Made by a program: the position numbers and the translations under genes. Source: an uncultured Clostridia bacterium (GTDB lineage Bacteria; Bacillota; Clostridia; Christensenellales; Aristaeellaceae). From it: a DNA stretch of 64,000 nt. Location of the stretch: NCBI GenBank assembly GCA_946414315.1, contig CAMKNZ010000007.1, positions 1-64,000 on the forward strand, written 5' to 3'. The notes below the pieces were generated by a model. That model was given only the letters and a program-made list of their open reading frames with translations, was not told where the DNA came from and did no database searches. Below are positions 1,580 through 50,049 of the stretch, in pieces; within the stretch, counting starts at the first letter, position 1; every line of letters begins with the position of its first letter.

Positions 1580-1849
1580 TTATTCCCTGTTATCGTCCCA
1601 CGGCTCAATATACCCCATCGCCCTGTCCGAATCCCCCACTCCCGCCGTGGTCGGATCCACCAGCACGCCCACCAAGCCGAGGAAAGTCAGCACCTGATTC
1701 AGAATATTCACGATCTGGTTTTCCGTCACAGCGGGGTAGATATCAAACAGTCTGAGCATATTGAACACAAACCCGATGATCAGGCTCAGGAACATAAACA
1801 GCCAGGTCTTATTGCGGAAGCGCACTTTCCAGTTCAGTTTCATACTCAC
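1580..1849 (-). CDS. Phage holin, phi-LC3-like family
   Basis: The 89-residue protein has two hydrophobic segments (about residues 14-32 and 44-63). It also has the family signature LVDPTTAGVGDSDRAMGY near the C-terminus, typical of phi-LC3-type holins, which open the membrane to release the endolysin. The start is GTG at 1849, in a GTGA overlap with the upstream gene. An ATG at 1843 is an equally reasonable alternative given the position of GAGGAGG. It is the last gene of the phage cassette in transcription order, next to the endolysin, as expected for a lysis module. Confidence 0.85.
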   Translation of the reverse strand: MSMKLNWKVRFRNKTWLFMFLSLIIGFVFNMLRLFDIYPAVTENQIVNILNQVLTFLGLVGVLVDPTTAGVGDSDRAMGYIEPWDDNRE

Positions 1850-2070
1850 TTTTCCTCCTCATTTTTCATATCCAGTTTGGTTTCAATGGCCACCAGCCTG
1901 CGGTCGAAATTGTTGTGCTTGTCCACCTTGTCGGACAGGGCCCTGACCTGCTTCTCCACCAGTTCCATCCGGTAGTCGATGAAATGCGACTGCTGCCGGA
2001 TGGTCAGGATGGTGCCGATCAGCGGCCCCAGCGCCGCGATCAGCGCAACGACAATTGTTTCCCAGTTCAT
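1846..2070 (-). CDS. Small lysis-module membrane protein with coiled coil
   Basis: Starting at the ATG at 2070 (GGAGGT ten bases upstream), this protein has one N-terminal membrane segment (WETIVVALIAALGPLIGTIL). A heptad-like stretch follows (MELVEKQVRALSDKVDKHNNFDRRL). This is a common layout for small proteins between endolysin and holin in Firmicutes phages (XhlA-like accessory lysis proteins). It overlaps the holin start. An in-frame extension to 2109 is encoded by the AT-rich repeat and is probably not translated. Confidence 0.6.
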   Translation of the reverse strand: MNWETIVVALIAALGPLIGTILTIRQQSHFIDYRMELVEKQVRALSDKVDKHNNFDRRLVAIETKLDMKNEEEK

Positions 2071-2095
2071 ACTTTGTCGTACCTCCATTTCCGCA

Positions 2096-2122
2096 AATTC
2101 ATAATTCACAATTCATAATTCA
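2096..2122. repeat. AT-rich dispersed repeat (AATTCATAATTCACAATTC type)
   Basis: A run of short overlapping AATTCATAATT/AATTCACAATT words. Related copies occur at about 2471-2504, 20170-20209, 53061-53075, 53123-53142, 60900-60935, 62390-62420 and 62818-62852, mostly in intergenic positions. Confidence 0.6.
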
Positions 2123-3010
2123 GTCTTCTTTCAGCACACTTCCCGGGTAATTTCTCATCAGCGCCTGCGCCTGTGTGAGATCCAGGCCCCCAATGGTGAC
2201 ACTGTACGTCACTTCTATCGGTTTCACTGAAATCACATTCATCGACTTTTCCAGCTCAGCCCAGGTATTCTTCCCGCAGATCCCGTCCACCGCCAGCCGG
2301 TGATCCGACTGGAAGCTCCGGACCGCAGCCTCCGTCGCCTTCCCGAAGTCTCCATCGATCCCGCATGGGCCCAGGTCATACCCCAGCTTCAGGAGCATGG
2401 TCTGTAGTTCCCTGACCGCATCCCCTTTGCTTCCTTTCCGCAGTGTCTGTTTCACGGTTTCGGACTCATATAATTCTGAATTCTGAATTATGAATTCTGA
2501 ATTGTCGGTGTTGACGTAGTCAACGCCGACAAGCTCGCCCCAGTGCGTCCACTTCCCGGCGGTGACCTTGCTGGTTGTCACCCCGTTGATCGTCCCCATG
2601 GCCTCGATGACCGTATCCCCGCCGGAATACAGCCCCACATGACTGTATTTCTTCCCGTTCCACACGAAGACCGCCGTCCCGGGTTTCAGCGTTCCGCAGT
2701 CCGTCCGCTTTCCTTTCCTCAGTTCGCCTTTGTTCACACAGTACTTCCGGAACATGGTGTCGGATCCGTGGTACATATATCCGCCCAGCTGTTTGAACGC
2801 CCACGAAAAAAGGCCGCTGCAGTCAGCGACCTTATGCCCGATCCATTTGCTCCCGTAGGCCCGTCCCTGGGCCCGGTCGGCGTCCGTTGTCTTTTCCAGT
2901 TCCTTCTGTTTCGCGGCGGTCCACTGTTCCCCCGCCGTTCCCCAAATATAGCCCCATTTCTCCGTCAGGGCCTGTCTGAATCTGTCGGTCAGTTGTTGTG
3001 TCGAAATCAT
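2120..3010 (-). CDS. Phage endolysin: NlpC/P60 peptidase with C-terminal peptidoglycan-binding domain
   Basis: The 296-residue enzyme should cut cell-wall peptides at the end of a lytic cycle. Residues 1-165 form an NlpC/P60 domain with the catalytic cysteine in VADCSGLFSW (about Cys64) and the histidine in YSHVGLYSG (about His124). A linker (about 168-186) is followed by a PG_binding_1 domain (about 188-256; LRKGSKGDAVRELQ, YDLGPCGIDGDFG, TWAEL). A short C-terminal tail follows. There is no signal peptide, so it would need the neighbouring holin. AGGAGG lies just upstream of the ATG. The linker NSEFIIQNSELYES is encoded by the AT-rich dispersed repeat at 2471-2504, suggesting an in-frame repeat insertion between domains. 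Confidence 0.9.
   Translation of the reverse strand: MISTQQLTDRFRQALTEKWGYIWGTAGEQWTAAKQKELEKTTDADRAQGRAYGSKWIGHKVADCSGLFSWAFKQLGGYMYHGSDTMFRKYCVNKGELRKGKRTDCGTLKPGTAVFVWNGKKYSHVGLYSGGDTVIEAMGTINGVTTSKVTAGKWTHWGELVGVDYVNTDNSEFIIQNSELYESETVKQTLRKGSKGDAVRELQTMLLKLGYDLGPCGIDGDFGKATEAAVRSFQSDHRLAVDGICGKNTWAELEKSMNVISVKPIEVTYSVTIGGLDLTQAQALMRNYPGSVLKED
2471..2504. repeat. AT-rich dispersed repeat inside the endolysin gene
   Basis: Tandem AATTCTGAATTATG-type words inside the endolysin coding sequence. They keep the frame open and encode the inter-domain linker. This is the same repeat type seen in intergenic positions elsewhere in the window. Confidence 0.65.
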
Positions 3011-3024: not shown

Positions 3025-3435
3025 TTAGTTATGTATTGCCCGGATTCCTGCCGGAAGCGGCAGGAGATCCGGAGTCACTCCCGCCGGGCTCACCGTGACC
3101 GTTCCGTTCAGGTTGTCCGTTTCCGTCACGCCTTCCGGCAGTACCGCCGGCACCCCAAGGTTCGTTCCGTCCCAGCTCCACAGCTTCAGCTTCTGCAGCA
3201 GGTATGCCCGGAACGCCTCATCCGTCATGCCCGGCTCCCGGCTGAGCCCCGCCGCCCCTGCGGCGGCGTCCAGCTGGACTCCCTCCGCCGTGGCAAAGGA
3301 AAACCCTGACCGGATTTCTCCGATCAGGGCCATCAGGTCCGCTGCCTGCCGCAGCACCGCCTCCGCCAGCGCCATGAACCGCGCTTTTCCCCGGCTTGCC
3401 CCCGGGAATAAAGCAAGATACTTGGTTATGTCCAT
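3025..3435 (-). CDS. Phage baseplate/tail protein, tail protein I or DUF2612-like
   Basis: The 136-residue protein has the helical pattern and the VQLDAAAGAAGLSREPGMTDEAFRAYL segment seen in small phage proteins encoded just after baseplate J. In those, an 'is the tail component new or old' style GAxLDxxGxxxGxxR motif is common. It overlaps the end of the baseplate J gene by ten bases, which indicates translational coupling. It is probably a baseplate wedge part linking the J protein to receptor-binding parts. No tail-fibre gene follows it. Confidence 0.65.
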   Translation of the reverse strand: MDITKYLALFPGASRGKARFMALAEAVLRQAADLMALIGEIRSGFSFATAEGVQLDAAAGAAGLSREPGMTDEAFRAYLLQKLKLWSWDGTNLGVPAVLPEGVTETDNLNGTVTVSPAGVTPDLLPLPAGIRAIHN

Positions 3436-4343
3436 CTTATTGACACCCCTCCCGTGTTCGGCGCCACGATGATCTCATCCCAGCCGGCCCGGATCATGCT
3501 CCGGACCACGGAGGACCCGCCGGGCTCCGCCACCTGGATGTCCGTCACCACAAAGGTGCCGGCAAGATCCGGATCGGCGCCGTAGATCACGCCGTAAAGC
3601 TGGGGGATATTCAGGGGCTCCCCGATTCCCAGCCTGCCGACAAAGCCCCGGACGGCCGGCACCACCGCCGCCTCGATGGCGGCCTGGCTGCCGCCGGGCA
3701 GGACAGAGATAAACGGATAAATGAACACCAGCCGGTCCGTGTACCGGGTGAAATTGATGGAATACGAATTTCCGGCGGCGTCCTTCGCCGTTCCCGTCGT
3801 ACTGCCGTAGGTCCCGATACCCGGCGGCTTATGATCAAAGATCGCCTGGGCCACGGATTTGGTGGTGCCGTATTTCGTTACCACGGCAATATTGTGCGCC
3901 GGGATGCCGTTGGCATCCGTGGTATCCGTATCGTTCACATACAGCTTTGCGTCCTCGATGCTCTTCGCATTCAGCACTGCCGCCAGCAGGGCGTCATACG
4001 AATTGGTACTCCGGGCAGCCAGGCTGGTACGGATCCTCGCCCGGACGGAAGCGTCCGTCTCCCCCGGGTTCCTGACCAGCCCGTACTGCGGCAGCAGCAG
4101 GTCCAGGGCTGTGCCGGAGGCATAGAACGGATTCCGGGAATTGAAGTCCTGCACTACCAGGGCGGACGTGTCGTCCAGGGCCCTGGCAAAGACGGACAGC
4201 AGCTGGTAGTCCGGCATGGCGGCGGACAGTTCCGCCTCCACGCCAAAGATGTTCCGGTAGGCCGTCACCAGATCCTCCAGCCGGTCTTCATAGGTCGGCA
4301 TATGAATGCCGGTAGCGTCAATGTAAGGTGTGAAATACGGCAC
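3426..4343 (-). CDS. Baseplate J-like protein
   Basis: The 305-residue protein is a typical size for gpJ-type baseplate wedge proteins of contractile-tail phages. Visible family features are MPTYEDRLEDLVTAYRNIFG near the start, DSRNPFYASGTALDLL-like text (NPFYASGTALDLLLPQYGL), RNPGETDASVRARI, and a C-terminal part with VEAAVVPAVRGFVGRLGIGE. The start is GTG at 4343, with AAGGAGG at good spacing. The next phage gene upstream in canonical order (gp25-like) lies beyond 10.3 kb, separated by two large surface-protein genes. Confidence 0.85.
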   Translation of the reverse strand: MPYFTPYIDATGIHMPTYEDRLEDLVTAYRNIFGVEAELSAAMPDYQLLSVFARALDDTSALVVQDFNSRNPFYASGTALDLLLPQYGLVRNPGETDASVRARIRTSLAARSTNSYDALLAAVLNAKSIEDAKLYVNDTDTTDANGIPAHNIAVVTKYGTTKSVAQAIFDHKPPGIGTYGSTTGTAKDAAGNSYSINFTRYTDRLVFIYPFISVLPGGSQAAIEAAVVPAVRGFVGRLGIGEPLNIPQLYGVIYGADPDLAGTFVVTDIQVAEPGGSSVVRSMIRAGWDEIIVAPNTGGVSIRWT

Positions 4344-4434: not shown

Positions 4435-7059
4435 TTAGCCGATCAGTTTGGATAAATCATCGGGCGACAGGAAAAACGAATAGCTGATATCCGGGTGTGC
4501 CGGCCAAATGAAGGAGAACGCGCCTTCCGGGATGGCCCGAACGGTATATTCAGCATAGTACAGCACCAGCGAGTCGATATCGTATTTATAGGTACCTTTT
4601 ACCTGGCTGCCGTCTTCCATGTACGCGATAAACGTGTTGTCTGAAAAGAAACTGATCCTGATTTGGTTTCCCTCATCCTCGGCTTCCACGAGCTTGATCT
4701 TCGATATCATATTGGACGGTGCCGGTGCGGGAGCAGGGTCGGGCTGCGGCAGCGGTGTGATGTTTATGACGGTCCGGTTGAGCTCCGTGCCGCACACGGT
4801 GCAGTAAACCACCTTTTCATAGCCGCCCGTCTGGCCGGGCTGGGCAGCTTTTTCATTCTCCCTCACCGCATCGCCGGGGGTATGACCCTTGGCCGGAATG
4901 GTCTTCCGCTCTGCAAGAATTGTGCAGCACACGGAGCAGTGCTTCCCTGCCGTCAGGCCGGTGTGAGTGCAGTCCGGATCAACCGCCGGGTCTACAACTT
5001 CGGTATGGCCCTTGGCCTTTACCACTTCCTGCGCCACCAGCACTTCGTTGCAGACAGAGCAGTGTTTCCCTTCCGTCAGGCCGGTATGCGTGCAGTCCGG
5101 TTCCACCGCCTTGTCGATGACTTCGGTGTGGCCCAGGGCTTTCACAACAGTCTGCTCCACCAGCACTTCACCGCATACGGAGCAGTGCTTGCCTTCCGTC
5201 AGACCGGTGTGGGTGCAGTCCGGTTCCACCGCCTTATCGATGACCTCGGTATGGCCCAGGGCATCGACAGTAACCTGCTTTGTCGCGTCGCACTTGCTGC
5301 ACTTATAGATATCCGTTCCGGTCGTCGTGCAGGTTGGTTTCGTGAGGGTACTCTGATATACCGTGAATTCATGCGTATGGGTCGTCAGGCCGCCCAGCTT
5401 CATTCCGCCGGCGCTCCTCATCTTGACGACAAAGGAGTTGATCGTATTAGCGACAGCAGCAATACCGTTTCCGATCGTCAGCAGATCCTCTTCCATTCCT
5501 GCTTCTTCATTATCATCACAGTAATAGTAAATGGAATCCAGGCCTTCATTCTCGCCAAGAGTGATGGTAACATCTTCGTCCTGCTTTGCCGTCTGCCAGA
5601 ACCGTTCCCATGCCTGTTCTCCCTCGCCGATCGTCACTTTCTTTGTATTGTCAGTAGCAATCGTCGCCATTTCCTTTAAAGCATCTGTCGCCTTGACGAT
5701 GTAGTTGATGGTCTTTTCAAATGCTCTGACCTCATCATCGGAAATTCCTGTTCCAGAGACAACAACTCCGTTCGTAGAGGTTTCCAGCTTCCAGACAGTC
5801 ACTTCGGCATTCTCCCCAGAAGTGCCACCCAGATATATCGCCGCCGAATCGCCGTATAGGGTGCCTTCGACCACTACATCAGATTTTTCTTCCTCCAGCA
5901 GTAAGCCCATGGATTCCAGACCGCCGGGTGTTGTTGTTTTATTGCTGGTCGCCGTTACATTGCCGCTTGCCTCCGGATTCTCCGCATCCTCCGCAACAAT
6001 AACCGTCCCGCCTCTAATCCAGAGTCCGATTGCCTGATTTCCGGATTCGCCGCCCGTCATGGAAGCCAATACTTCACCTGCTCTGACAGTAGCGCCATTT
6101 CCTATTGTTGAAACCCCTCTAGCACTCGTATCACTCTCTGCAGACACCTTACTGTTCACGGTTATGATGGTGCTGTCAGAATCTGATAAATCGTAGGCAG
6201 AAACACCGGTAAACGTACTGACGACACTTTCGGCATTCACTACCGTGGAGGATTCAGCCGTGGAGGATTCATTATAAATACTTATCCCTACCTGACCGTC
6301 ATTAATCTCTCCCGCTGTAAGGTTGATGCTTCCTTGATTATTATCAACATATATACCCCATCCATCACCGTTGATATCCCCGGGTGTGGCATCTTCTCCC
6401 TGGTTCAAATTGACTGTTCCGGTATTGTTATGAATAAATATACCAGCGTTACTACCACTGATACTTGTTTCAGTCGTTTCATTCGTGTCCGGATCAGTTT
6501 TGGTTTTCTGCTCAATATTCACTTCTCCGGCATTGTTCATTATCGTAATACCGTTTTCATGTTTTTTGCTACTGGTATCAGCATCCTGTCCTTCAACATC
6601 CCCCACATTGAGGTTGATGGTTCCGCTGTTAATATTAGTTCCATCTGAGGAGCCAATGAAAATCCCGGACCCATCTTTTCCCGTAACGGTATTTGCATCA
6701 ATATCAACTGTGTCCGTATTGCTTTGAATCTCGATGCCGTTCTCTGCGCCGGTCACGGTGCCCGCGTCGATATCAATTTCGCCCTCATTGGTTTGAATCG
6801 TGATACCGTCCTCTTCTTTGCCGGTCACGGTATCCGCATCAATATCAATTTCGCCCGCATTGGTTTGAATCGTGATACCGTCGGAGACCACATCACCAAA
6901 GTCAAGGTCAAGTTTATCCCCTGCAGGATTAGCATCGATAAAGACGCCGTCAACGTTAGGCTTTGTACTGTTTTCATCTCCCGCCAGCGCACTGCCAAAG
7001 ATCATCACAAAAGCCAGCAGCAGCGCCGCGATTGTCCGGATCCCCTTCGCCAGTTTCAT
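4435..7059 (-). CDS. Secreted surface protein with beta-helix-like and Cys/His-rich repeats
   Basis: The 874-residue protein begins with a signal peptide ([21 protein letters not shown]...ALAG). Residues of about 45-330 consist of short repeated units such as [20 protein letters not shown], which look like a parallel beta-helix. Residues of about 600-740 hold tandem 40-residue repeats containing [18 protein letters not shown] and GKHCSVCxEVL. Each repeat has a C-x-H...HC-x-x-C set that could bind zinc. No LPXTG sorting motif or transmembrane anchor is evident at the C-terminus. The repeat block is nearly identical to that of the next gene. It sits between two baseplate genes but has its own promoter region and signal peptide, so it is probably cargo rather than a virion part. 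Its function is unknown. Confidence 0.75.
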
Positions 7060-7129
7060 ATCTTCAAACCTCCGCCTGTTCAGTTTTGTTAAGCATTTAT
7101 ACTGAATTGATTATATACTTTTTTTGCTT

Positions 7130-10100
7130 TTACTTCCAGATGCCCACGAAGGTCTTATTCTCCGTCACTTTATACTCTGTTCCCCCTGTCAGGATACCTG
7201 CGTTGCCTTCAACAGGCGCCACCCAGGACGGATCCGTCGGCGGAACATCCGATAATGCCCAGCCCATAAAGGTCTTTCCTTCCCTCACGGGCGTCGGCAG
7301 GGTGTAGGTGGCGCCGGCCTTCACCTTGACGTTATTGACCATTGCCCCCGCGTCCTCATAGAAGGACAGCGTATAATAGGTATCTGTAACGGCAATTTCA
7401 GGTTTCGGTTCGGGATCAGGCAAAGCCGGCACAGTTACCGTTCTCCGGGCGAGTTCCGCTCCGCAGTCCTTGCAGTAGATCACATCGTCATAGCTGCCCG
7501 CCACACCAACCTGGGCGGCTTTCTCGTTTTCCTTCACAGGCGCAGCCTCTTTATGACCCTTGGCGTTCACGGCAGTCTGTGCCACCAGCACTTCGTTGCA
7601 GACAGAGCAGTGTTTGCCTTCCGTCAGGCCGGTATGGGTGCAGTCCGCAGCCACCGCCTTGTCAGTGACCTCAGTATGGCCCTTGGCGTCCACGACGGTC
7701 TGCGCTGTCAGCACTTCATCGCAGACGGAGCAGTGTTTGCCTTCCGTCAGGCCGGTATGGGTGCAGTCCGGTTCAACCGCCTTGTCGATGACTTCGGTAT
7801 GGCCCTTAGCGTTCACGACAGTCTGCGCCACCAGCACTTCGTTGCAGACGGAGCAGTGCTTCCCTTCCGTCAGGCCGGTGTGGGTGCAGTCCGGTTCAAC
7901 CGCCTTGTCGGTGACCTCGGTATGGCCCTTGGCTTTTACAACAGTCTGCTCCACCAGTACCTCATTGCATACGGAGCAGTGCTTGCCTTCCGTCAGGCCG
8001 GTGTGGGTGCAGTCCGGTTCCACCGCCTTGTCGATGACCTCGGTATGGCCCAGGGCTTTGGTCGGGGTATCCTTGTAGCTGTATCCGCAGACGCTGCAGG
8101 TATGTGTCGTGTAGCCGTCATCCGTACAGGTGGGTTTTATCACCACAGCCGTGTACTGATGTTTATGCGTCTTCAGACCAAGCAGCATGGAACCGCGGAC
8201 GTGGTCAAACACTGCGCCCATCACCAGCTTGAATACGCCGTTTTCGCTTTTGTCGACTAAGCCGGCGGTATTCTCCGTTCCTTCGCTGTCCTTGTCATAG
8301 TAGTAATATACGCCGTCCACGCAGTCATCGTCTTCCAGGTTCAGATCACTGACGCTGACCGATACCTCTTCCCCTTCTTTGGCGGTCAGGTAAGTCTGTT
8401 CATCCTTTTTCCCTTCATTGAAGACCGCGACACCGCTGCCGGTTATTGCTTCTGCCGTCAGCACGGACTTCCAGGACTCCGCCACGCGGATAATATAATT
8501 AATCTGACTCTCAACCGACTTGACGAAATCCGTGTCATGGTTGTCGCTGGAATCAACCGCGACCGCGCCGTCGCTGTTTTCAGCCGCCTCCCAGACAGTC
8601 ACGTTCAGGTTTTCAACCGAAGTGTTTTCACTGTCTGCCGCAATCGCTGCTGTCGTGCCGGAAAGCCTTCCGTCCACCTGCACATCCACGATGCTCAGCT
8701 CGTCTACCTCCGTCGCTTTCAGTCCGTAAGCCTGCCCGTTGTCTCCTGTGCTGACCGCAGCCACATCACCGTTTACCTCAGTCCGGATGATACTCTCTTT
8801 CATAGCATTGACGGCTATTCCGTTTGATTCTCCGTCGGACGCCGTAGCGGAGATCCCGCCCTGGACAGCGATGTCATTCTGGCCATCTCTGTACGCAGAC
8901 GCTTTCACGCCGGATGCGTTCAGGCCGTTGACGACAATTTCCCCTATGTCCGCCTCGTTCCGGCCGCTGGCTTGTGCATCTGCATCCAAACCGACAGCCT
9001 CTCCGTAAGTGGAATTGTCGACAGTCACGGTCATCCCGCCGATATTTGTTACGGTTTCGCCGGAATCGGACGCAGAAACAAGCGCTCCTGTCGCTTTTCC
9101 TGCGTCTTCGTTTGTATTATTACTCGCTGTAACCGTCAGTGTGCAGACCTCAGTTTCCGTTTTTCCTGAATTGCTGCCGCTGACGGTAACTCCCGTTGCA
9201 TTTCCGTTTCCCTTGCTTTCAACCTCCAGGACTTCTATGGATATATCCGTCACAGGTTTGTATACTTCTTCATTAAGCTCCGGCTCCCCATTGTATCTTG
9301 AGAACCCCCTGACACCGATGGCTTCAGCATTTTGTCCGTATGCGCTCAGGCCGCTCGATGCACTGACCGTAACTTTACCGTTATCGACCTGTGTATACGC
9401 AATCGGCTTCGTTTCATCTTCCGGTACGCCATGTTTATCCCGTTCACCGTATGCCATTGATACAGCCTCGACACCGACTGCCAGCACAGTACAACCACTG
9501 TTTGCAGTACCGGCTTCCACTTCCACATCACCGGAAGCATATACTGCCGCCGTTCCTCCGTCATTACTGGTAGCAAACAGATCCATACCGGTGGCCTTCA
9601 CATTCCCGTATTCACCGCTTGCCGACGCCTTGACATCACCACTGAAGATAATTTCAGCTTCACCGCCGTCATTCCCTGTGGCAGACGCATTCACACCGGT
9701 TACCACCTGATCGCTGCCCTCCGTTCCGGCTGTTATACCGATCACAACCGTCTCCGCATGTCCGCCGTTTGTTCCCTCTGCAGAAAGCTGAATAGCCGTT
9801 TTACCCGTTTCGTCCTCTGATTCAGTTTTATAAATATTTAACTCATCGGGCCCCCAGCGTTCAAATTCCAGCGTAGCATCATTGTTTTCACCGTTTGCAT
9901 ATGTCTCCGCATGAATACCGGGACCGGTATAATCGCCGCCCCACACATGAACGACAATGTAGTCTGCCTCGGTCTCATCAAATACTTGTGTCTGGGGCTT
10001 GTTATCCGCGCCGTTATTCACAACCGCAGAAACCGGCAGATTTGTAAAAGGGTTACCAAGGGATCCATCCTCCAAATATTCAGTCGAACTGCTGTTCACA

Positions 10101-42427: not shown

Positions 42428-43399
42428 TCAGATTCCGTCTAAATATCTGACCGTGGAAGGATACAGGAACCGGACCTCGCTGAACTGCGCGATGTAGGGG
42501 ATCTTGATGCGCATGTCAGAGTATTCCGTGTCCATCCGGCGCAGGGGCTGGGTCAGGTTGAAGCAGATGCGGTCCACCCGGTTCATATAGACCACCATGC
42601 GGTCGGAGCCGTTGGAGCCGATGCCGCTGCACCATTTGCAGGGAGAGATCGTCAGCTCGCCGCCCTGCTGGGCGGACAGGTTGTTCTCCAGCACATAGGT
42701 GAGGATGGACCGTTCCGAATCGTCGGACACCTTGCGGGTGACCAGGGCGCCGAACTGCTGCACCGGGATCAGGATATGGTTGGGCAGGGCGTCGGAGGAG
42801 CAGTCGTTGTCCCGCCAGAGGGCGGAGATGGCGGTGTTGATATCGTTCAGGATCTCGTCCGCGGTCTTGTACTGCCACTGGGTGTCGGAGCCGCCGGAGG
42901 TGTGGGGATCCGCGGAGGCGCGGAGCACCGAGGGGTTGTTGCACAGGCCGGTGGAGGTCACCTTCGTGAAGCCGGTGTAGACGTTCCGGTCGATCAGCTT
43001 ATCGCAGTGGAGCCGGATGCCCTTGTTCAGGAAGGTTTCCGGATCCCGGCCCACCTGCATCATCTTTTCCCGCTCCAGGGTGGAAAAGGACATGTATTCG
43101 GCAAAATTGAAGGTCCGGGCCACCTGCTTGGACATGTCCGCCTGGATGACGGGAATGTCGTTGGCCGCCTCAAAGAAAAGGTTGTCGTCGTCCCCGCCGG
43201 AAGAGGCGTAGGTGACGTCCACGGAGGCGATGGACTCCAGCAGCCCGCCGCCGGTGATGACCGGCATATCCCGGGGCCAGTCCGTGCCGGAAAGGGGTTC
43301 CAGGATCACGTCGTCCACCTTCTCCAGCTCCTTCATGAGGAAGGTGTAGGAATCGTTCACCGCCAGGCGGCGGGTCCGGATGGGAGGGGTTTTATACAT
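42428..43399 (-). CDS. Phage major capsid protein (DUF2184-like)
   Basis: The 323-residue protein has the DUF2184 capsid pattern: IPVIQADMSKQVARTFNFAEYMSFSTLEREKMMQVGRDPETFLNKGI, HCDKLIDRNVYTGFTKVTSTGLCNN, ILNDINTAISALW, PNHILIPVQQFGALV and RMVVYMNRVDRICFNLTQPLRR. It would form the head shell. GAAAGGAG precedes the ATG. The frame is intact, without stops, so the gene has been kept under selection or is recently acquired. Confidence 0.85.
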   Translation of the reverse strand: MYKTPPIRTRRLAVNDSYTFLMKELEKVDDVILEPLSGTDWPRDMPVITGGGLLESIASVDVTYASSGGDDDNLFFEAANDIPVIQADMSKQVARTFNFAEYMSFSTLEREKMMQVGRDPETFLNKGIRLHCDKLIDRNVYTGFTKVTSTGLCNNPSVLRASADPHTSGGSDTQWQYKTADEILNDINTAISALWRDNDCSSDALPNHILIPVQQFGALVTRKVSDDSERSILTYVLENNLSAQQGGELTISPCKWCSGIGSNGSDRMVVYMNRVDRICFNLTQPLRRMDTEYSDMRIKIPYIAQFSEVRFLYPSTVRYLDGI

Positions 43400-43427: not shown

Positions 43428-43940
43428 TCAAATGATGTTCCGCCTGTTGACGACGGCTTCGCAGCAGCCGGACCAGCCGGTCCGGGGATTGCGGATGCGG
43501 ACGTTCTCCAGCAGGACCGTGGATCCCGAGGACCCGGCCGTGGCCGTCAGCTTGCCGTCGGACTTGCGGATATACAGCTTGCCGCCCCGGCCGCCGGAAA
43601 CGGTGGTCGCCAGCGCCACGCTGCCCCGGACCAGGACTTCCATCAGATCGTTGGCGTGCCAGGCGCCGGTCTCACCGGCGGAGTCCGGGTCGTTGAACTG
43701 CCCCCGGGGATAGGCGTCCGGGGTCTTGTCCGCCACCCGGACGGCGAAGCCCAGGAAACTTGCAAACTCCTGGGGCGATTCCAGGTCGAACGGCACGGCG
43801 CCGTTCTCGGTCATGAAGACCGGAGTGCCGAAGGGGATATCGACCCCCGAAGCGTTCCGGACAGAGATCACGATATCGTCCACGGAGCGGGTGACCGTCC
43901 CCGGGTATCCGTATCCGAAAGCGTCCAGTACTTTGCCCAT
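43428..43940 (-). CDS. Phage head structural cement protein (Gp24-like)
   Basis: The 170-residue protein includes DIVISVRNASGVDIPFGTPVFM, FASFLGFAVRVADKTPDAYPRGQFNDPD and HANDLMEVLVRGSVALATT. These are typical of Gp24/DUF2190-like cement proteins that stabilise the shell. It lies between the DUF2213 and capsid genes in the standard order, with a close ribosome binding site (GGAAAGGAG). Confidence 0.75.
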   Translation of the reverse strand: MGKVLDAFGYGYPGTVTRSVDDIVISVRNASGVDIPFGTPVFMTENGAVPFDLESPQEFASFLGFAVRVADKTPDAYPRGQFNDPDSAGETGAWHANDLMEVLVRGSVALATTVSGGRGGKLYIRKSDGKLTATAGSSGSTVLLENVRIRNPRTGWSGCCEAVVNRRNII

Positions 43941-43961: not shown

Positions 43962-45215
43962 TCACTTATGGTAATTAGCGTTGCGCTTTTCCATAATCTT
44001 CCGGCCCAGGTCCGCGGAGGCGGGCGCCGTCCGCCTGCGGGCGGAAGCCAGAGCCGCGTAGGCGTCCGTTCCGGTGGTTCCCCGCCCGGAGCCGCGGGTG
44101 CGGCGGAGGCGGGCGGCGATATCGCCGGCCATCTTCCGGCGCGCCTTCTTCGGCATCCGGACCAGCACCGGCCGCACGGCCGCCAGGGCTGCCCGCAGCG
44201 CGTCATCCGTCCGGAGGGTCTCCGGCAGCGGTTCTTCCTCCCCGTCTCCTTCCTCCTCCAGGATCACTGAGGCCACGGGTTCCAGGATCTCCTCCATGGC
44301 GGCGGAAACCTCTTCCGCCATCGGATCCGCGGCTTCCGAAGCTTCAAGGGCTTCTTCGACCGCTTCCGCGATCTCTTCGGGGATGTCGTCCGCGGCGGCA
44401 GGCGTCAGCAGGGCGATGATCTGATCCAGGCGGGAAAGGATGTCGGCAAGGGACGCTTCGTCGATGGCGATCACGGTCTCCGCGTTTTCGACGGCAGGCG
44501 TTTCTTCGGGTCCGGCTGCCCCGGCAACGGCTTCGGCGACAGCTTCGGCAGCGGCTTCAGCCGGTTCCGTTTCCGGTTCGATCATCTCTTCGATGAATTC
44601 GGCGACGGTCTCGATATCGCCGTCTTTGGCCATCCGGGCCAGGACTTTGGACAGGGATTTCTTCATGTGTGTGTCTCCTTTCATTTCGGTTGCTTTATGA
44701 TCATGTATCGAAACGCGGGCGCCCGCGCGGCCGGCATCGACTACCGCCACGTGGTTCCCGCGGATCTTCCGCTGGAGATACTGTCCGTTCTCCTCGCACA
44801 GCTCATAGGTGTAGCCGCAGGAGATCTCCCGCTTGCCCTCCTCCAGGATGGCGGTGATCAGCGCCGGATCGGTGATGATCAGGTCCGCCAGGAGCAGGTC
44901 GGACTCTTCCCCGCTGCCCCGCCGCACATTGTGGGCGTGGCCTTTCTGCAGGGCGCGGATATTGAAAACATCCACCCCGTCGGGCGGATGATCGTTGGTG
45001 ACCGGCATCCCTTCAAAGGACGCGATCGTCGCTTCGGAAAAAACTTCTTCTTCCGTCCGGATGACCGGAACCGGGCTGTTCCCGGGCATTCCTAACTCCT
45101 CCGGCAGGTACTCCTGCACGCCCGTGCGTGCCACCGGCACATTCAGGCATAAGAGGTAGCCTTCAGGTTCCCTGCGGGATATATTCTCCGACAGGCGCGT
45201 TCCGTAATACTGCAA
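43962..45215 (-). CDS. Phage head scaffold/protease protein (DUF2213)
   Basis: The 417-residue protein starts at TTG 45215, with AAAGGAGG. Residues 1-170 match DUF2213: EGYLLCLNVPVARTGVQEYLPEELG, ATIASFEGMPVTNDHPP, LLADLIITDPALITAILEEGKREISCGYTYEL and GNHVAVVDAGRAGARVSI. A long Glu/Ala-rich, probably disordered scaffold-like middle (about 200-340) and a basic helical end follow. This fits a protease-scaffold fusion for head assembly. Confidence 0.8.
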   Translation of the reverse strand: MQYYGTRLSENISRREPEGYLLCLNVPVARTGVQEYLPEELGMPGNSPVPVIRTEEEVFSEATIASFEGMPVTNDHPPDGVDVFNIRALQKGHAHNVRRGSGEESDLLLADLIITDPALITAILEEGKREISCGYTYELCEENGQYLQRKIRGNHVAVVDAGRAGARVSIHDHKATEMKGDTHMKKSLSKVLARMAKDGDIETVAEFIEEMIEPETEPAEAAAEAVAEAVAGAAGPEETPAVENAETVIAIDEASLADILSRLDQIIALLTPAAADDIPEEIAEAVEEALEASEAADPMAEEVSAAMEEILEPVASVILEEEGDGEEEPLPETLRTDDALRAALAAVRPVLVRMPKKARRKMAGDIAARLRRTRGSGRGTTGTDAYAALASARRRTAPASADLGRKIMEKRNANYHK

Positions 45216-45329: not shown

Positions 45330-45533
45330 ATGACGATCGACGAACTGGAACTGACCCCCGACGAGATTCTCCGGATTACCCGGGGCGGACAACGGCCCCT
45401 CCTGGCCAATGTATGCTTCCATCATTTTGTTTCCACCGGGAAACAGCGGGAAGGCCGGTTTTTCTTCCCCCGGATCCGGAAGGAATATGAGTATCAGTGC
45501 GAATACTGCGGCAAGGTGAGATGGTCTGCCTGA
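45330..45533 (+). CDS. Double-glycine leader peptide with FHH...CxxCG core (paralogue of 28310)
   Basis: The 67-residue peptide has the leader MTIDELELTPDEILRITRGG. The core contains ANVCFHHFVSTGKQREGRFF, then PRIRKEYEYQCEYCGKVRW. It aligns with the core of the 28310-28630 protein (FHH, TGK, F-P, Y-x-C-x-x-CG, W). AAGGAGCAGGAAAGC precedes the ATG. Possibly an exported small zinc-binding peptide; its activity is unknown. Confidence 0.7.
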   Translation: MTIDELELTPDEILRITRGGQRPLLANVCFHHFVSTGKQREGRFFFPRIRKEYEYQCEYCGKVRWSA

Positions 45534-45548
45534 CCATCCCTTCTTTCT

Positions 45549-45578
45549 TTGACAAAAGCGCCTCTTTTTCAGTATGAT
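45549..45578 (+). promoter_or_regulatory. Sigma-A-type promoter for the phosphoesterase gene
   Basis: TTGACA (45549-45554) and TATGAT (45573-45578), 18 bases apart. Confidence 0.65.
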
Positions 45579-45626
45579 AAAAGCAGCAACAACGCCGCCT
45601 GGAATCAGCGGGAAAAGAGGCCGGAT

Positions 45627-46109
45627 ATGGATCAGACCGGTACGGTGAAAGTCGCTGTGATCTCGGATACCCACGGGCTCCTGCGCAGGGAGGTCGTGGC
45701 GGAGCTCCGGGACTGCACCCACATCATCCACGCGGGCGATATCGTCCGGGAATCAGACCTGGACGAGCTCAGGCTTTACGGCTCGATCTATGCCGTCCGG
45801 GGCAACAACGACCTGTGGCAGAGCGGGCTCAGCGACCTGGCAGGCGTCCTGTGGTTTCAGATCGCAGGCGTTTCCTTTGTCATGACCCACGACCGGTATG
45901 ACGTTCCCCGGAACCTGGACGGCGTCCAGGCTGTGATTTTCGGCCATTCCCACCGCTACAGTGAAGTCTGGTCCGACGGCAGGCTCTGGCTGAATCCCGG
46001 AAGCTGCGGCCGCGCCCGTTTCGGCGGGGACGTGACCATGGCGAAGATGACCCTGCGGAACGGAAAGATCCTGGGCGTACAGCGGATTGACTTTGAGAAA
46101 GAAGGCTGA
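45627..46109 (+). CDS. Metallophosphoesterase (YfcE/MJ0936-like)
   Basis: The ATG at 45627 gives 160 residues. The calcineurin-like motifs are all present: VAVISDTHG (DxH), IIHAGDIV (GDxV), VRGNNDL (GNND), FVMTHDR (GH-type His) and VIFGHSH (GHSH). It should be a two-metal phosphodiesterase of the YfcE type acting on small phosphodiesters. It is followed two bases later by the repeat-protein gene, so the two are one operon. Confidence 0.88.
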   Translation: MDQTGTVKVAVISDTHGLLRREVVAELRDCTHIIHAGDIVRESDLDELRLYGSIYAVRGNNDLWQSGLSDLAGVLWFQIAGVSFVMTHDRYDVPRNLDGVQAVIFGHSHRYSEVWSDGRLWLNPGSCGRARFGGDVTMAKMTLRNGKILGVQRIDFEKEG

Positions 46110-46111
46110 CC

Positions 46112-47029
46112 ATGAAGATCCTTGATCAGATCAGAAACCTGTTTTTCGGCAAAAAAGCTGAAGAGGCTCCCCCGCCCAAATCCCCGGATCAGTACGCCTG
46201 GCCGGAGGACCGGGAACTGATCCTGCAGCTGCTGGACAGCGGGGACGATTTCAGGGCCCGGGCACAGGCGGTCACCCTGCTGCCGTACCCGGAGGAACGG
46301 GAGCGGATCATCCGGATCGCGAAGGAAGACCGGGACGACTTCGTCCGGGACTTCGCGATCGAAAAGCTGCGGTATCCCGATGACCGGGACGTGCTGGCCG
46401 CCCTGGCGGAAAGCGAGACCAACTACCAGCTGGTCAGGCGCGCCGTGGAAATGCTGCCCTGGCCGGAAGAAAAGGAAGAGCTGCTGAAACTTGCCCGGGC
46501 GGACAATTATCCGGTGTTCGCCGTGAAGAAGCTGGACAGCACCGTCGATCCGGCCGTCCCGGAAGGCATCGCGCTGAACGCCTTCGACCGGGAGGCGCGG
46601 CAGGCCGCCGCGGCCCTGCTGGAATATCCCCGGAGCAAAGACGCGCTGGAACAGTATGTCCTGTCGGACGATCCCCTGCTGGACCGCCGGGCCGCCATCG
46701 AAAAGCTGCCTTATCCGGAATGCCGGGAAACGCTGGTGAAAGCCGCAACGTCCTGCCCCCATGAAATATCCCGGGCCTTCGCCGTCAGCCGGCTGCCCTG
46801 GCCGGAGGAAAAGGAACTCCTCGAAACCCTCGCCCATTCAGGGGAAGAGAGCTTCGCCAAAGCCGCCGCGATGCTGGCCATGGCCAGGGGCGGCATATGC
46901 CCGGCCTGCGGCAAGCCTGTCAAAAACTATACGAAGACCGTCTATATGAACGACGATCCCAACGACGTTTCAAAGGAATGCGAGGCCTGCCTGTGCGAAG
47001 CCTGCGGCTGGGAATGGGTGAACGACTGA
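46112..47029 (+). CDS. HEAT-like repeat protein with C-terminal zinc-ribbon-like motif
   Basis: The 305-residue protein is built of helical repeats marked by (L)PYPEERERI, LRYPDDRDVL, LPWPEEKEELL, LPYPECRETLV and LPWPEEKELLE, each about 27-30 residues apart. The end holds CPACGKPVKNY...KECEACLCEACGWEW, which could bind zinc. It may act as a scaffold. Its last 88 bases overlap the 3' end of the convergent phage portal gene. It lies two bases after the phosphoesterase gene. Confidence 0.7.
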   Translation: MKILDQIRNLFFGKKAEEAPPPKSPDQYAWPEDRELILQLLDSGDDFRARAQAVTLLPYPEERERIIRIAKEDRDDFVRDFAIEKLRYPDDRDVLAALAESETNYQLVRRAVEMLPWPEEKEELLKLARADNYPVFAVKKLDSTVDPAVPEGIALNAFDREARQAAAALLEYPRSKDALEQYVLSDDPLLDRRAAIEKLPYPECRETLVKAATSCPHEISRAFAVSRLPWPEEKELLETLAHSGEESFAKAAAMLAMARGGICPACGKPVKNYTKTVYMNDDPNDVSKECEACLCEACGWEWVND

Positions 47030-48375
47030 GGAGACGGGATTCCGATCTTCGTATACACGCCCAGTTCCCCGCCCCTGGATTTCAGCTCGGCAAGCGCTTC
47101 CTCCCGGGTCAGAAGGCCCGCCCGGAACGCCTCGATGACATCTGAAGAAAGTTTCTGTACCAGCTCCGCCCGTTCGGCGGGGCTGGTTGTCATTACCGGC
47201 TCAAAAACAAACTCCAGGTCCTCCGGCACATATCCCCAGCAGGAGACCGCCATCACCGGCAGGAGCTTTTCCAGTGCCGGGCGGAGCTGGCGTTCCTGGA
47301 GGGAGGCGATCATGTCGTAGTAATTCCGCAGGTCCGATTCGCCGGTGGCGTTCATGCCCTGGGGTGAGCGGCCGAAGAGCTTCGTCGCGGGGATCTCCGC
47401 CGCGCCGGCCATGTCCATCATGAACTGCTCGTAGATCTCGCTCAGCCCCGCGAAGGAATAGGCATGGTTCTCATAAGCGTCGTCCTTCGACAGCAGCTGG
47501 ACGCCGAAGGAGGTCCGGAAGCGGTTCTCCATCTGCATGGCGTTGATCACGCTCCGTTTCTGCTCCTCGGTGCCGGAAGCCAGCAGGTCCCCGAAATCCG
47601 CCATCTTCAGGGTGGTCACGTTGGCCTGGAAGAGCAGCTGGGCGATATTGGCCGAGGCGGCGCTGCGCTTCAGCAGCTCTTCATAAATATGCTCCATCTC
47701 GCTGGCGCCCCAGAAGTTTTCGCGGACGGTCTCCGTGCGCGGCAGTTCCCGGCCCACAAAGCGCAGCACCCGGGAATGGTGCAGGGTCACGGAGCGGCAG
47801 TCCTCCGTATCCAGGTTCACGGTATAGCTGGCCGGCAGGCCGAAGTCCGGATCGTCCAGGTCGGAAACCAGCTCCGGGGAAGGTTCGATCCCCTGGGCCC
47901 GGTCCAGCACCAGCAGGCCCTGGAAGCAGTCCGGCAGGAGCGTCTCCGGGACCAGCGGCTGATCCAGCCGGTCTTCCTCGCCCCGGACCACCATCAGGGC
48001 CAGGGATCCGCCGTAAAGCCGGGCCCAGCGCAGGGCGTTGGTGATCTCCTGCTTTACGCTGTGGCGGGCCTCCAGGCTGCGCAGGGCGTGAAGCGCGGCA
48101 TCCGGCAGGGCGGCGGAGAGCCTGTACCAGGCCCGGGTCATGTCCTCGGAAGGCATATCAATGATCCGCATGGTCAGCCAGGATTCCCGGTACATGGCCG
48201 TGAGCAGGTCCGGGTCGGAGGTCAGGCCCGAGCGGACAAAGGCGCCCGCGGTGAACAGCAGGGCGTCGTCCCCCGGAAACACGGCGGCGTTGGAATAGCC
48301 GTCGTTCGCGAACGGCGGGCTTTCCGGCCGGCGGGCGGAGGGCGGCTTTTTTGCCGTATGATTCTTTTTCATCAT
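46942..48375 (-). CDS. Phage portal protein (DUF1073-like)
   Basis: The 477-residue protein matches the DUF1073 portal family: LTAMYRESWLTMRIIDMPSEDMTRAWY, ALRWARLYGGSLALMVV, SRVLRFVGRELPR, NFWGASEMEHIYEEL, IPATKLFGRSPQGMNATGESDLRNYYDMIASLQERQLRPALEKLLPV. The portal is the DNA gate of the head. The last ~28 residues (FTHSQPQASHRQASHSFETS) are encoded antisense to the HEAT-like gene and look unnatural. The original 3' end was therefore probably replaced when the cargo was inserted. Confidence 0.8.
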   Translation of the reverse strand: MMKKNHTAKKPPSARRPESPPFANDGYSNAAVFPGDDALLFTAGAFVRSGLTSDPDLLTAMYRESWLTMRIIDMPSEDMTRAWYRLSAALPDAALHALRSLEARHSVKQEITNALRWARLYGGSLALMVVRGEEDRLDQPLVPETLLPDCFQGLLVLDRAQGIEPSPELVSDLDDPDFGLPASYTVNLDTEDCRSVTLHHSRVLRFVGRELPRTETVRENFWGASEMEHIYEELLKRSAASANIAQLLFQANVTTLKMADFGDLLASGTEEQKRSVINAMQMENRFRTSFGVQLLSKDDAYENHAYSFAGLSEIYEQFMMDMAGAAEIPATKLFGRSPQGMNATGESDLRNYYDMIASLQERQLRPALEKLLPVMAVSCWGYVPEDLEFVFEPVMTTSPAERAELVQKLSSDVIEAFRAGLLTREEALAELKSRGGELGVYTKIGIPSPQSFTHSQPQASHRQASHSFETSLGSSFI

Positions 48376-48388
48376 CTGTTTGTCTGAA

Positions 48389-49636
48389 TTATCTCCTGAA
48401 CCTCGTGGCGCGGGTATGGCAGAGATAGCGGAGGGCGTCCATGGCGTGGTCGTGGTCCTTCACCGGGCGTTCCTCCCCTTTCCGGCGGGCCTTGTCGTCC
48501 CAGACATAGCTGTGGATTTCCCGCAGGAGCGCGGGGCAGCGGTTCCGCTCCGCCCGGACCAGCCGGTTTCCGATGAGCACCGCCGTGGTGGCGACGCCCT
48601 CCCGGACGTCGTTCTTCGCGTCCAGCACCCGGAAACCGCGGTTCCGCAGTTCCGCCTTGAAGCTGGCGGCGCTGGGGTCCACGATCACCTGGATATTCCG
48701 GTCCCCTTCAAGGAAGCGCTCCAGGTCGGCGGCGTACTCCGCGTCGGTCTTTTGGCGGCGCCGGACGGCGGAGTCCCAGTAATACTCCTTCATGATCCAG
48801 AAGGTCTTTCCGTCGTCCCGCACATCCAGGAAGACGCAGGGATTCACCGTGCCGTAGTCCACGGCGCAGAACCGGCGCATATCCCGGAAGGGGATCTCTT
48901 CCTCCCCCCGTTCCTCCGCCAGGAAGGTGTTCGCCCGGTCGTCCCACATGGGATAGACGGCGCCCTCGGCGCTGACCCATTCCCCCAGGATATACTGGCG
49001 GTAAAAAACGCCCGAAAAGCTTCGGGCGTAACTCTCCCGGATCTGCGGGGAGAGGGTCAGGTTGTCGTCCATGGTGAAGTGAAGCCGGTACAGGCCGATC
49101 TCCTCCGCCCGGTCGATAAAATCCGTCTTGAGGTAATGGTAGGCCCCGTTCGGGTTGCAGTTGAGGAAGATCCGGCTGCCCTCCACGGAGCAGCGACCGA
49201 TCATCTGGTCGATAAAGGAGCGGGGAAACAGGGCCGCCTCGTCGGCGTAGGCGCCGGCGGCGGTCATGCCCTGGAGCTTGTCCTGGGCGTTGTCCTTGTC
49301 CGCGCCGAACAGGTAATAGCTGTTTCCGCCCACCAGCAGGCGGGCCTCGCCCCGTTTCCATTCCGCCGGGATGCCCAGGGTTTCGAGCATGGCCAGCATG
49401 GGGCCGAGCACGTTGCGCGCCAGCGCGCCGGAGGTGACCCCGGCCAGGATGAAATCCTGTCCCCGGAAACTGTCCAGGCTCCAGAGAAGGAAGGAAAGGA
49501 TCATCGCCACGGTCTTGCCGCTGCGGATGGCGCCGTCCGCCAGGACGATGCGCCTGTCCTCAACCCCCGAGCCGGGCCGCCACCAGTTCAGCAGCTGACG
49601 CTGTTTGCGCGAGAAAGGCTGAAACCGGAAACTCAT
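48389..49636 (-). CDS. Phage terminase large subunit
   Basis: The 415-residue protein has the ATPase Walker A-like motif VLADGAIRSGKTVAMILS (about residues 33-45) and Walker B GAYADEAALFP. The coupling segment FLNCNPNGAYHYLK and the nuclease part FCAVDYGTVNPCVFLDV, QVIVDPSAASFKAEL and DHDHAMDALRYL follow. All acidic nuclease positions expected for the RNase H-like fold seem present, so it looks able to package DNA. It overlaps the small subunit gene by four bases. Confidence 0.9.
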   Translation of the reverse strand: MSFRFQPFSRKQRQLLNWWRPGSGVEDRRIVLADGAIRSGKTVAMILSFLLWSLDSFRGQDFILAGVTSGALARNVLGPMLAMLETLGIPAEWKRGEARLLVGGNSYYLFGADKDNAQDKLQGMTAAGAYADEAALFPRSFIDQMIGRCSVEGSRIFLNCNPNGAYHYLKTDFIDRAEEIGLYRLHFTMDDNLTLSPQIRESYARSFSGVFYRQYILGEWVSAEGAVYPMWDDRANTFLAEERGEEEIPFRDMRRFCAVDYGTVNPCVFLDVRDDGKTFWIMKEYYWDSAVRRRQKTDAEYAADLERFLEGDRNIQVIVDPSAASFKAELRNRGFRVLDAKNDVREGVATTAVLIGNRLVRAERNRCPALLREIHSYVWDDKARRKGEERPVKDHDHAMDALRYLCHTRATRFRR

Positions 49637-50049
49637 TCCCCGCCGCCTTCCTGCCCTGCCTCCGGATACAGCTCCCGCAGTTCCTCCCGCGTAGGGGCCA
49701 TGGCGGCGTTCAGCGCCTGGATGGCGGCCTCGGCGCTCTCCCCGGGATCCTTTCCCGCGTCCGGCAGGAAGCGGTTATACTGCTGGGAGATGATCGTGGC
49801 GCTCTTCTTCAGCTGGTCGAAGCTGGCCCGGCGGATGGCGATGAGCCCGTCCTGCCGGATCATGGAAAGCATCTCTTTCAGGGAATGGCGGCTGTAGTTT
49901 TTCCGGCACCAGGCTTCCAGTTTCCGTTCCGTGGTGCCCACATAGCCGAGGATCTCCTCCGTGGCGCACTGCAGCGCCCCCAGTTCCTCAAACAGTTCCT
50001 TCGTCAGGTCCCGGCGCAGGCCGGTCAGTACGGTGGGTTCGGCAGGCAT
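49633..50049 (-). CDS. Phage terminase small subunit-like protein
   Basis: The ATG at 50049, after GGGGGG, gives 138 residues. The pattern FEELGALQCATEEILGYVGTTERKLEAWCRKNY is a helix-turn-helix of the type found in small terminases. SFDQLKKSATIISQQYNRFLPDAG and an acidic tail follow. It recognises DNA for packaging. A terminator hairpin of the upstream gene lies only about 30 bases before its start, leaving no room for a promoter. Confidence 0.75.
   Translation of the reverse strand: MPAEPTVLTGLRRDLTKELFEELGALQCATEEILGYVGTTERKLEAWCRKNYSRHSLKEMLSMIRQDGLIAIRRASFDQLKKSATIISQQYNRFLPDAGKDPGESAEAAIQALNAAMAPTREELRELYPEAGQEGGGE

Follow-up and report, generated by a model that had tools for sequence, protein, structure and literature searches.

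A dispersed contractile-phage gene set in a gut Clostridia chromosome as a candidate gene transfer agent

Why would a bacterial chromosome keep phage genes for packaging, head, contractile tail and lysis in canonical order, with every frame open, when the set is cut at ten places by other DNA? This question is raised by a minus-strand locus of an uncultured Clostridia bacterium, placed at positions 1580-50109 of the analysed stretch of 64,000 nucleotides (the window, C7:1-64000 of genome G000, an assembly of 2.24 Mb and 60% completeness). It is considered here rather likely that the locus is a domesticated phage-like particle of the gene transfer agent (GTA) type, kept by the bacterium and passed on vertically. 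It is presented as a candidate GTA, not as a member of that class, because the GTA features found in it are those recognizable at the sequence level. A sequence-only reading of the window had proposed either such a particle or an old moron-laden prophage whose frames are still selected, and this proposal was supported by the recurrence of the gene order in relatives and by dN/dS values below 0.5.

The particle genes and their layout

The comparison of 30 minus-strand open reading frames (ORFs) of the window with PHROGs (E<=0.01) revealed family matches for 22, including TerL, portal, capsid, sheath, endolysin and holin; three of these matches (gpI type, P185 and the second lysis protein) were weak. 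Three ORFs lacking a family match (49633-50109, 42149-42412 and 10773-11141) were assigned by their position and their conservation in relatives. In total, 25 phage-type genes were found where about 24 had been claimed, all on the minus strand and all with open frames, and the end of the set, first placed at 50049, was corrected to 50109. Their canonical order, from terminase to holin, is the following:

49633..50109, minus: putative small terminase (TerS), from its position just upstream of TerL
48389..49636, minus: large terminase, chromosomal type (TerL-A), phrog_2 4.6e-57
46942..48375, minus: portal, phrog_146 1e-109
43962..45215, minus: head maturation protease, phrog_530 1e-56
43428..43940, minus: virion structural protein, likely decoration or stabilisation, phrog_563 1.4e-12
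42428..43399, minus: major capsid protein, phrog_264 7e-58, dN/dS 0.006-0.17
42149..42412, minus: P87, small conserved protein after the capsid, no PHROG match, same place in relatives
35363..35794, minus: head-tail connector type protein, phrog_302 4.6e-17
32786..33295, minus: neck or tail completion protein, phrog_222 3e-19
31920..32291, minus: head protein (head123), phrog_939 4.5e-18
30789..31346, minus: conserved 185-aa protein (P185) before the sheath, phrog_1973 6e-4, present in relatives
29533..30714, minus: tail sheath (contractile), phrog_205 5e-55, PDB sheath 7kh1 1.5e-6
28995..29429, minus: tail tube type protein, phrog_280 6.5e-16 (listed as virion structural protein), position after the sheath
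27111..27608, minus: tail assembly chaperone, phrog_1688 1.1e-5
24299..25111, minus: tape measure, 270 aa only, phrog_167 1.4e-7
20201..20779, minus: baseplate-region protein, LysM-like, phrog_817 8e-10 (listed as tail fiber)
19797..20372, minus: baseplate-region protein (P191), phrog_349 4.8e-7
19021..19800, minus: baseplate hub, phrog_196 1.3e-6
10773..11141, minus: 122-aa baseplate-region protein, possibly spike, from its position and 17 aligned sequences, no PHROG match
10298..10654, minus: baseplate wedge (gpW/gp25 type), phrog_120 1e-12
3426..4343, minus: baseplate wedge (gpJ type), phrog_6 1e-17
3025..3435, minus: baseplate or tail protein (gpI type), weak matches to phrog_587 (1e-3) and phrog_1160 (1.5e-3)
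2120..3010, minus: endolysin, phrog_2649 5e-22
1846..2109, minus: second small lysis-region protein, phrog_1863 3e-6 and phrog_689 (holin) 2e-3
1580..1849, minus: holin, phrog_297 1e-20

TerL-A aligned nearly end to end with the solved phage terminase 5oe8 (5e-112), its Walker A motif GAIRSGKT was invariant in 22/22 sequences, and its acidic motifs were likewise kept in all 22. A PHROG match was obtained for none of the 21 aligned genus sequences of the putative TerS, nor did a PDB search give one; the true start is probably at an internal MPAEPTV. Similarly, the true start of the sheath probably lies near residue 23 and that of P191 near residue 70, where several relatives start. Some gene matches in relatives ran over a stop, which in our reading reflects a window ORF start placed too far upstream (P191, sheath) or a match overshooting the end of the gene (portal). 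The product of 20201..20779 is presumably LysM/XkdP-like, a name that we take from its position.

The 25 genes cover 48.5 kb, of which phage-type DNA makes up 16 kb. Ten junctions of the set hold non-particle DNA, 0.5-7.9 kb each and 32 kb summed, in agreement with the at least ten cargo blocks first seen. Family scans of 59 distinct window proteins (30 against PHROGs, 30 against Pfam, one against both, with small ORFs such as those of the GG peptides outside) detected no integrase, phage repressor or replication gene, as had been claimed; one PHROG labelled integrase matched the endolysin, via its C-terminal part. The pattern expected of a GTA, with genes for head, tail and packaging present and those for replication and integration absent, was found by family scans and, for compact loci of other lineages, partly by eye.

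The reported lack of a tail fibre fits these observations, but it is not diagnostic. It was rejected as a mark of domestication since the phage record G191 has the same layout, passing directly from a gpI-type gene to the endolysin. The short tape measure was also discarded as such a mark, given that the phage-type copies in G186 and L244 are likewise about 280-290 aa long.

As a separate observation, residues 40-74 of the tail chaperone (about 35 residues, window 27387-27491) match short stretches elsewhere in several relatives, many of them on the opposite strand, which gives the impression of a small repeat inserted in frame into the gene. One of these matches lies between two parts of an unusually long protease frame (645 aa) of G165 (L148, C16:134209-135169).

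Conservation, descent and the phages of the same hosts

Among 45 genomes of the genus, 13 of them classed as good (at least 90% complete and at most 5% contaminated), the interleaved order was found again in G150 and G176, both assembled as one contig, in G132 and G091, with two contigs each, and in others. Since the same order is present in single-contig genomes, the dispersed layout is not an assembly artefact. The locus spans 48.5 kb in G000, 29 kb in G165, 41 kb in G132, 42 kb in G150, 43 kb in G176, 44 kb in G066 and 33 kb in G091. All 25 genes were found in G132, G150, G176 and G165, and 24 in G066. The loci with 24 or 25 genes hold 14.7-16.3 kb of phage-type DNA, except that of G066 (13.4 kb), which lacks one gene and has a truncated protease and capsid. 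Compact loci of 14-16 kb occur in other lineages (G026, G149 and G160), with 19-21 genes found, and some of these loci have rearranged tail genes; their neighbours are ordinary genes, such as CTP synthase, PurA and capsule genes, among the 25 families listed out of 102 matched. The neck gene and the tube gene were also seen as tandem duplicates, in L141 (G150 C1:2221283, 2222622) and L165 (G186 C23:34818, 35605).

The capsid gene was detected in 31/45 genomes (12/13 good ones) and TerL-A in 29/45 (10/13 good), once per genome except for 45%-identical extras in G160; one or the other was present in 35/45 genomes and in all 13 good ones. In a family sample of 150, the listed genus members carried TerL at 77% identity or more (six with a match; G149, whose contig ends within the protease gene, without), and the best match elsewhere had 54%.

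The chromosomal position of the locus is shared within the window's clade and is marked by one flank:

52136..56181: chromosomal flank marking the shared site (x289, cobW1, cobW2, DegV), from Pfam

The cobW1 gene lies on the terminase side in all eight clade species read (G000, G165, G132, G112, G066, G150, G174 and G176), that is, in 7/7 clade relatives with the flank read, and cobW2 and DegV follow wherever the flank was read far enough. The TerL and rpoB trees of 22 genomes (five of the 27 TerL genomes were dropped for want of rpoB) had 11/19 splits in common, against a mean of 0.26 and a maximum of 3 in 2000 label shuffles. In Mantel tests, rho was 0.62 with TerL (n=22) and 0.52 with the capsid (n=21), at p 0.0005 in either case. 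The shared site, the shared splits and the Mantel tests together demonstrate vertical inheritance in the host chromosome, as in GTAs.

The divergence at synonymous sites agreed with this descent in two close pairs. The median dS of the locus was 0.22 (n=41) and that of the flanks 0.19 (n=9) in G150/G066, and the values were 0.165 (n=42) and 0.14 (n=22) in G150/G176, the lists for locus and flanks including cargo and some shadow frames, a few of them with dN/dS above 0.5. The dS of rpoB (0.02-0.39) was dropped as a yardstick, being lower than that of the locus, and flank genes were used instead.

Purifying selection on the structural genes, another GTA feature, was verified by Nei-Gojobori counting for 24/25 phage genes (all but 1846-2109), with dN/dS below 0.5 in every pair. 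The values ranged over 0-0.48 in G150/G176, 0.04-0.34 in G150/G066, 0.06-0.42 in G150/G132, 0.03-0.25 in G176/G174 (eight genes) and 0.06-0.34 in G000/G165; those of portal, sheath and P191 in the remaining pairs lay at 0.04-0.33. The lowest values were those of the capsid (0.006-0.17), the tube (0-0.08) and TerL (0.02-0.11), and hub, gpW and gpI were looser.

In the closed or nearly closed genomes G132, G150, G176 and G091, no tyrosine integrase (PF00589) was detected closer to the locus than about 300 kb; the PF00589 matches of G000 lie on contigs C33, C1 and C10, and none on C7. Integrase and replication genes beside the structural genes, as in an active temperate prophage, were found neither in the window nor in these four genomes. 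Large serine recombinases occur at the locus only in G066 and G151, among ten genomes searched, at an insertion in the capsid gene.

True phages of the same hosts share structural genes with these loci and use another terminase. For example, the IMG/VR record G191 (36.5 kb) carries the endolysin-to-protease part of the module and the portal, interrupted once by about 3 kb in which a Big_2-type protein lies. It also has a VapE-like replication gene, and its large terminase is of another type, TerL-B; neither a holin nor a TerS was seen in this record. Similarly, the G186_C18 copy adjoins a primase-like gene and TerL-B. Matches to TerL-B, fragments included, numbered 11 in G177, 5 in G186, 6 in G173 and 2 in G175, with one isolated copy in G132 and one beside a portal in G112; none was found in G000, G150, G176, G091, G066 or G174. 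In IMG/VR, TerL-A at 74% identity or more was present on at least three contigs, all short (4-8 kb), among the matches listed, and TerL-B at 62% or more on 12 contigs, three of them of 36-66 kb. In a quick tree of six structural genes, with SH-aLRT support only, L244 joined near the window's module (SH-aLRT 81), and the G186 and G177 copies grouped with G175_C37 and G159.

Two side observations concern these phages. G186 holds three copies of the phage module (L163, L164 and L165), mosaic and with blocks 100% identical between copies. In G132, a lone phage-type large terminase (C1:2244262-2250491, L276-L277) lies beside SIR2 and TIR/SEFIR-type-looking defence ORFs, recognized by eye, and no structural module of the window's kind was matched in its surroundings.

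Cargo between the particle genes and a candidate activator

Much of the DNA between the particle genes encodes ordinary bacterial families, identified by Pfam as GGDEF, C1 peptidase, NUDIX, PadR, GNAT, Na/Ca exchanger and BspA-type leucine-rich repeat (LRR), among others. The non-particle segments are the following:

45330..47029, plus: cargo at the portal-protease junction (metallophosphatase, HEAT-repeat protein), from Pfam
40589..42046, minus: cargo BspA-type LRR protein, PF13306
39601..40584, minus: cargo Na/Ca exchanger, PF01699 2.5e-64
35941..39367, plus: cargo at the P87-connector junction, plus-strand part, from ORF layout
33453..35360, plus: cargo at the connector-neck junction (GG-leader peptides, GNAT), from Pfam and ORF layout
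32380..32715, minus: 111-aa ORF between neck and head123, no PHROG match
31419..31880, plus: cargo at the head123-P185 junction, no Pfam match
27719..28989, plus: cargo at the tube-chaperone junction (GG-leader peptides), from ORF layout
25279..26645, plus: cargo at the chaperone-tape measure junction (GG-leader peptides), from ORF layout
20830..24231, plus: cargo at the junction of tape measure and LysM-like gene (ABM, radical SAM-like, PadR, flavin reductase-like), from Pfam
11786..19053, plus: cargo at the junction of hub and spike candidate (GGDEF, C1 peptidase, NUDIX, 2-phosphosulpholactate phosphatase), from Pfam
4435..10273, minus: cargo at the gpW-gpJ junction, two large repeat-bearing surface proteins, from Pfam and repeat search

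The first impression that cargo lies mostly on the opposite strand held for most of it, but 7/37 picked cargo ORFs of the window are on the phage strand, including the Na/Ca exchanger, an LRR protein and the two large surface proteins. Across nine dispersed loci, cargo was opposed to the phage genes in 155/191 ORFs (p 9e-19, although ORFs are not independent) and, counted by cluster, in 87/107 (p 4e-11); 22 ORFs of G151 (mostly the inserted element, 15/17 co-oriented) and G156 were left out of the count. Leading-strand bias as the sole cause of this orientation was rejected, since the flank genes of seven loci mostly point the same way as the phage genes (97/147) whereas cargo is mostly opposed. 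The flanks are not uniform, with only 13/36 genes co-oriented in G091 and 4/12 in G000, which are thus mostly opposed as well. Opposed cargo may leave a long phage-strand transcript uninterrupted. A terminator detector that proved too permissive to discriminate gave, on the two strands, 202 vs 192 hits in the loci and 104 vs 114 in the flanks.

Some cargo is tied to particular junctions. Same-junction cargo is common to G132, G150, G176 and G066, and partly to G174. An LRR gene like that at 40589-42046 was present on the phage strand of the P87-connector junction in 11/24 loci with, or presumed with, TerL-A, and in 0/11 other copies, of which L244, G186_C18 and G186_C23 carry TerL-B on the contig. 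Its identity is 52-65% in close loci and 36-39% in G151, G157 and G169; G132, of the window's clade, lacks it at this junction.

Regarding control, an ArpU/sigma-like gene occurs near TerS in G175, G163 and G179. In the window's clade, an unlinked ArpU-like homologue with 41-55% identity to that of G132 was found (G132, G150, G066, G176, G180, G165, G000, G174 and G112); in four genomes the homologue and the locus are on one contig, with the homologue 28-42 kb past the holin end. Matches elsewhere in the genus do not exceed 37%, and 24/45 genomes match overall. This gene is a candidate activator of the particle genes. In G175 (L161:14121-15430), helix-turn-helix and ImmA-like genes, the latter named by eye, stand beside the ArpU-like gene next to TerS, a group reminiscent of a phage control switch that has been kept.

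A promoter motif common to the phage genes was sought and rejected, as the repeat found precedes cargo rather than phage genes. This promoter-like repeat (TGCGTATAWACAGGTG with an upstream CTGCC box) has eight copies in the window (25198, 25863, 26362, 28249, 33371, 35077, 35873 and 39405), where 0.01 are expected, and 5/8 precede GG-leader peptide genes. Three exact core matches occur in the rest of the genome and at most two weak matches per relative's locus. Other repeats were also noted: 123-nt tandem repeats are common to the two neighbouring large surface protein genes (window 4804-8143), and a tRNA-Val (cac) with three tRNA-end-like repeats after it lies at window 1042-1383, parts of which recur in other contigs of the genome.

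What the particle may be and how it compares with known systems

The gene content predicts a particle with a head, a short contractile tail, its own packaging motor (TerS/TerL-A) and lysis genes, and without integration or replication genes. In a GTA-type particle, some signal would cause the dispersed minus-strand genes to be expressed together. The head, portal, protease and conserved terminase point to DNA packaging, and the motor would fill heads with pieces of the host chromosome; host DNA appears the likeliest content because replication genes are lacking and the particle genes are scattered among host genes. Holin and endolysin would then open the cell and release the particles, and sheath and baseplate would make contact with cells, so that particles could reach relatives as in a gene transfer agent. 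In the clade, accessory genes have accumulated between the particle genes, mostly opposed and some at one junction in several species; they may benefit the host.

A fuller version of this proposal, to which we hold only tentatively, is that a functional contractile-tailed GTA with its own terminase and an unlinked phage-type activator serves as an inherited scaffold for accessory genes at fixed junctions, which mostly face against the particle genes, and swaps structural modules with phages of the TerL-B type.

Several findings weigh against a domesticated particle of the GTA type. In deeper clades the locus lies at other sites than the cobW flank. The median dS of G000/G165 is higher in the locus (0.82, n=21) than in the flanks (0.51, n=8). 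Frame-breaking changes across relatives, proposed as grounds for refutation, are mostly absent, but some copies are broken: G151 and G166 have a split capsid gene; in G066, G155 and G163 no more than the C-terminal part of the capsid was found, and in G180 such a part lies beside a full copy; the G066 protease is reduced to 43 residues; and the G155 TerL is cut to residues 3-139. Moreover, no TerL-A was found in the good genomes G177 and G186 though capsids are present, no receptor-binding protein was identified among the scanned genes, and a PF00589 integrase lies on the locus contig of G151, about 26 kb beyond the terminase end. Finally, the IMG/VR module L241 is sister to the window's in the six-gene tree (SH-aLRT 89). 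Structural genes have accordingly passed between phages and chromosomal loci, the terminase marking the chromosomal lineage.

Some of the broken copies share a feature of their own. A 21.5-kb element lies within the G151 capsid gene (L152-L154, C40:24008-46136) and encodes large serine recombinases in tandem, a sugar-type ABC transporter and enzymes of the GH2, GH3 and GH120 types. Near-identical element ends occur at the same capsid codon in G066, G163 and G166, and this is also where contigs of G155 and G180 begin or stop (L031, L168, L169, L170 and L171). The cut TerL of G155 (L264, C55:44066-44862) has a portal-like match nearby, an arrangement like that of a second copy in decay or of a rearranged one.

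The strongest alternative, though an unlikely one, is a killing particle like PBSX, in which random host DNA is packaged and not delivered and the contractile tail kills relatives while producers are spared. The contractile tail together with head and packaging genes is present as such a particle would require, and the tail and the gene order resemble those of PBSX. The GG-leader, bacteriocin-like peptides of the cargo would also fit a weapons locus. PBSX packages host DNA in pieces of 13.4 kb and has been described as acting like a tailocin (PMC12946183). However, no variable fibre or immunity gene was recognized; constraint on the head and packaging genes equals or exceeds that on the tail genes, yet PBSX keeps its head, so this constraint does not separate the two explanations.

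It is improbable that the locus is a reservoir kept by recombination, that is, an old prophage remnant useless to the host whose frames stay open through overwriting by related phages. The nesting of phage modules among chromosomal ones, the three mosaic copies of G186 with their identical blocks and the raised dS of G000/G165 speak for it, but the phages read use a terminase other than TerL-A, whose tree matches that of the host and which is under strong constraint, dS agrees between locus and flanks in two close pairs, and the LRR gene keeps to one junction of TerL-A (or presumed TerL-A) loci. A phage-derived R-type tailocin would account for the contractile tail, baseplate and lysis genes and for the replication genes not being seen; it is hardly tenable, because tailocins have lost head and packaging genes and this locus retains capsid, portal, protease and TerL, of which capsid and TerL rank among the most constrained genes. 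Least credible of all is an ordinary decaying prophage loaded with morons, which the many unrelated insertions and the broken copies of some relatives recall but which all 25 open window genes, low dN/dS, one site in eight species and an rpoB-congruent tree contradict.

If the locus is a domesticated GTA-type particle, it would add a further Gram-positive GTA, contractile-tailed and conserved across ruminant-gut Clostridia species, which would suggest that domesticated DNA-packaging particles are commoner in Gram-positive bacteria than thought. It could move fragments of the host's DNA from one cell to another. The dispersed layout, a gene set cut at ten places yet kept by selection, raises the question of its expression, and the phages sharing structural genes but not the terminase would allow a direct comparison of the step from phage to host particle. 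No description of the locus was found in the search listings and opening lines of abstracts surveyed, mostly outside subscription journals.

Among known systems, RcGTA-type agents of Alphaproteobacteria share vertical inheritance, purifying selection, a short tape measure and some unlinked parts with this locus, but have a non-contractile tail and a compact main cluster and belong to another phylum. In the Gram-positive bacteria, PBSX and FpGTA have been named as GTA or GTA-like systems, FpGTA as the second after PBSX, and GTA-like packaging has been reported in Christensenellaceae (PMC12946183). PBSX of Bacillus subtilis packages host DNA in its particles (PMC12946183); the present genes differ in their spread over 29-48 kb in the window's clade and in their conservation across gut Clostridia species. 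FpGTA of Faecalibacterium (PMC12946183) is likewise from gut Clostridia, near-universal in its genus and equipped with TerS/TerL, portal, capsid and lysis genes, without replication genes and with a gene set not in one piece, being split into two operons. It is described as most likely podovirus-like, with 8.4-8.9 kb of DNA, while sheath and tube genes are present here.

The VSH-1 type GTA of Brachyspira is similarly conserved, with rearrangements, among species of a host-gut genus; its genes were contiguous, though rearranged, in the two strains compared (PMC2897892). The Bartonella GTA is also phage-derived and conserved in its genus, and it too goes together with accessory genes that serve life in the host. 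It has been tied to the amplification of host-adaptability genes, with run-off replication multiplying a dynamic region of 461 kb that is then packaged (PMC2697382), whereas here cargo sits between the particle genes. Domesticated myovirus-type prophages and tailocins have been discussed for solventogenic clostridia (PMC10538166). Finally, grounded prophages, immobile elements that gather foreign genes, have been treated as hotspots of gene gain (PMC6379469); the present locus resembles them in its cargo and differs from them in that its structural genes are mostly intact and selected across species.

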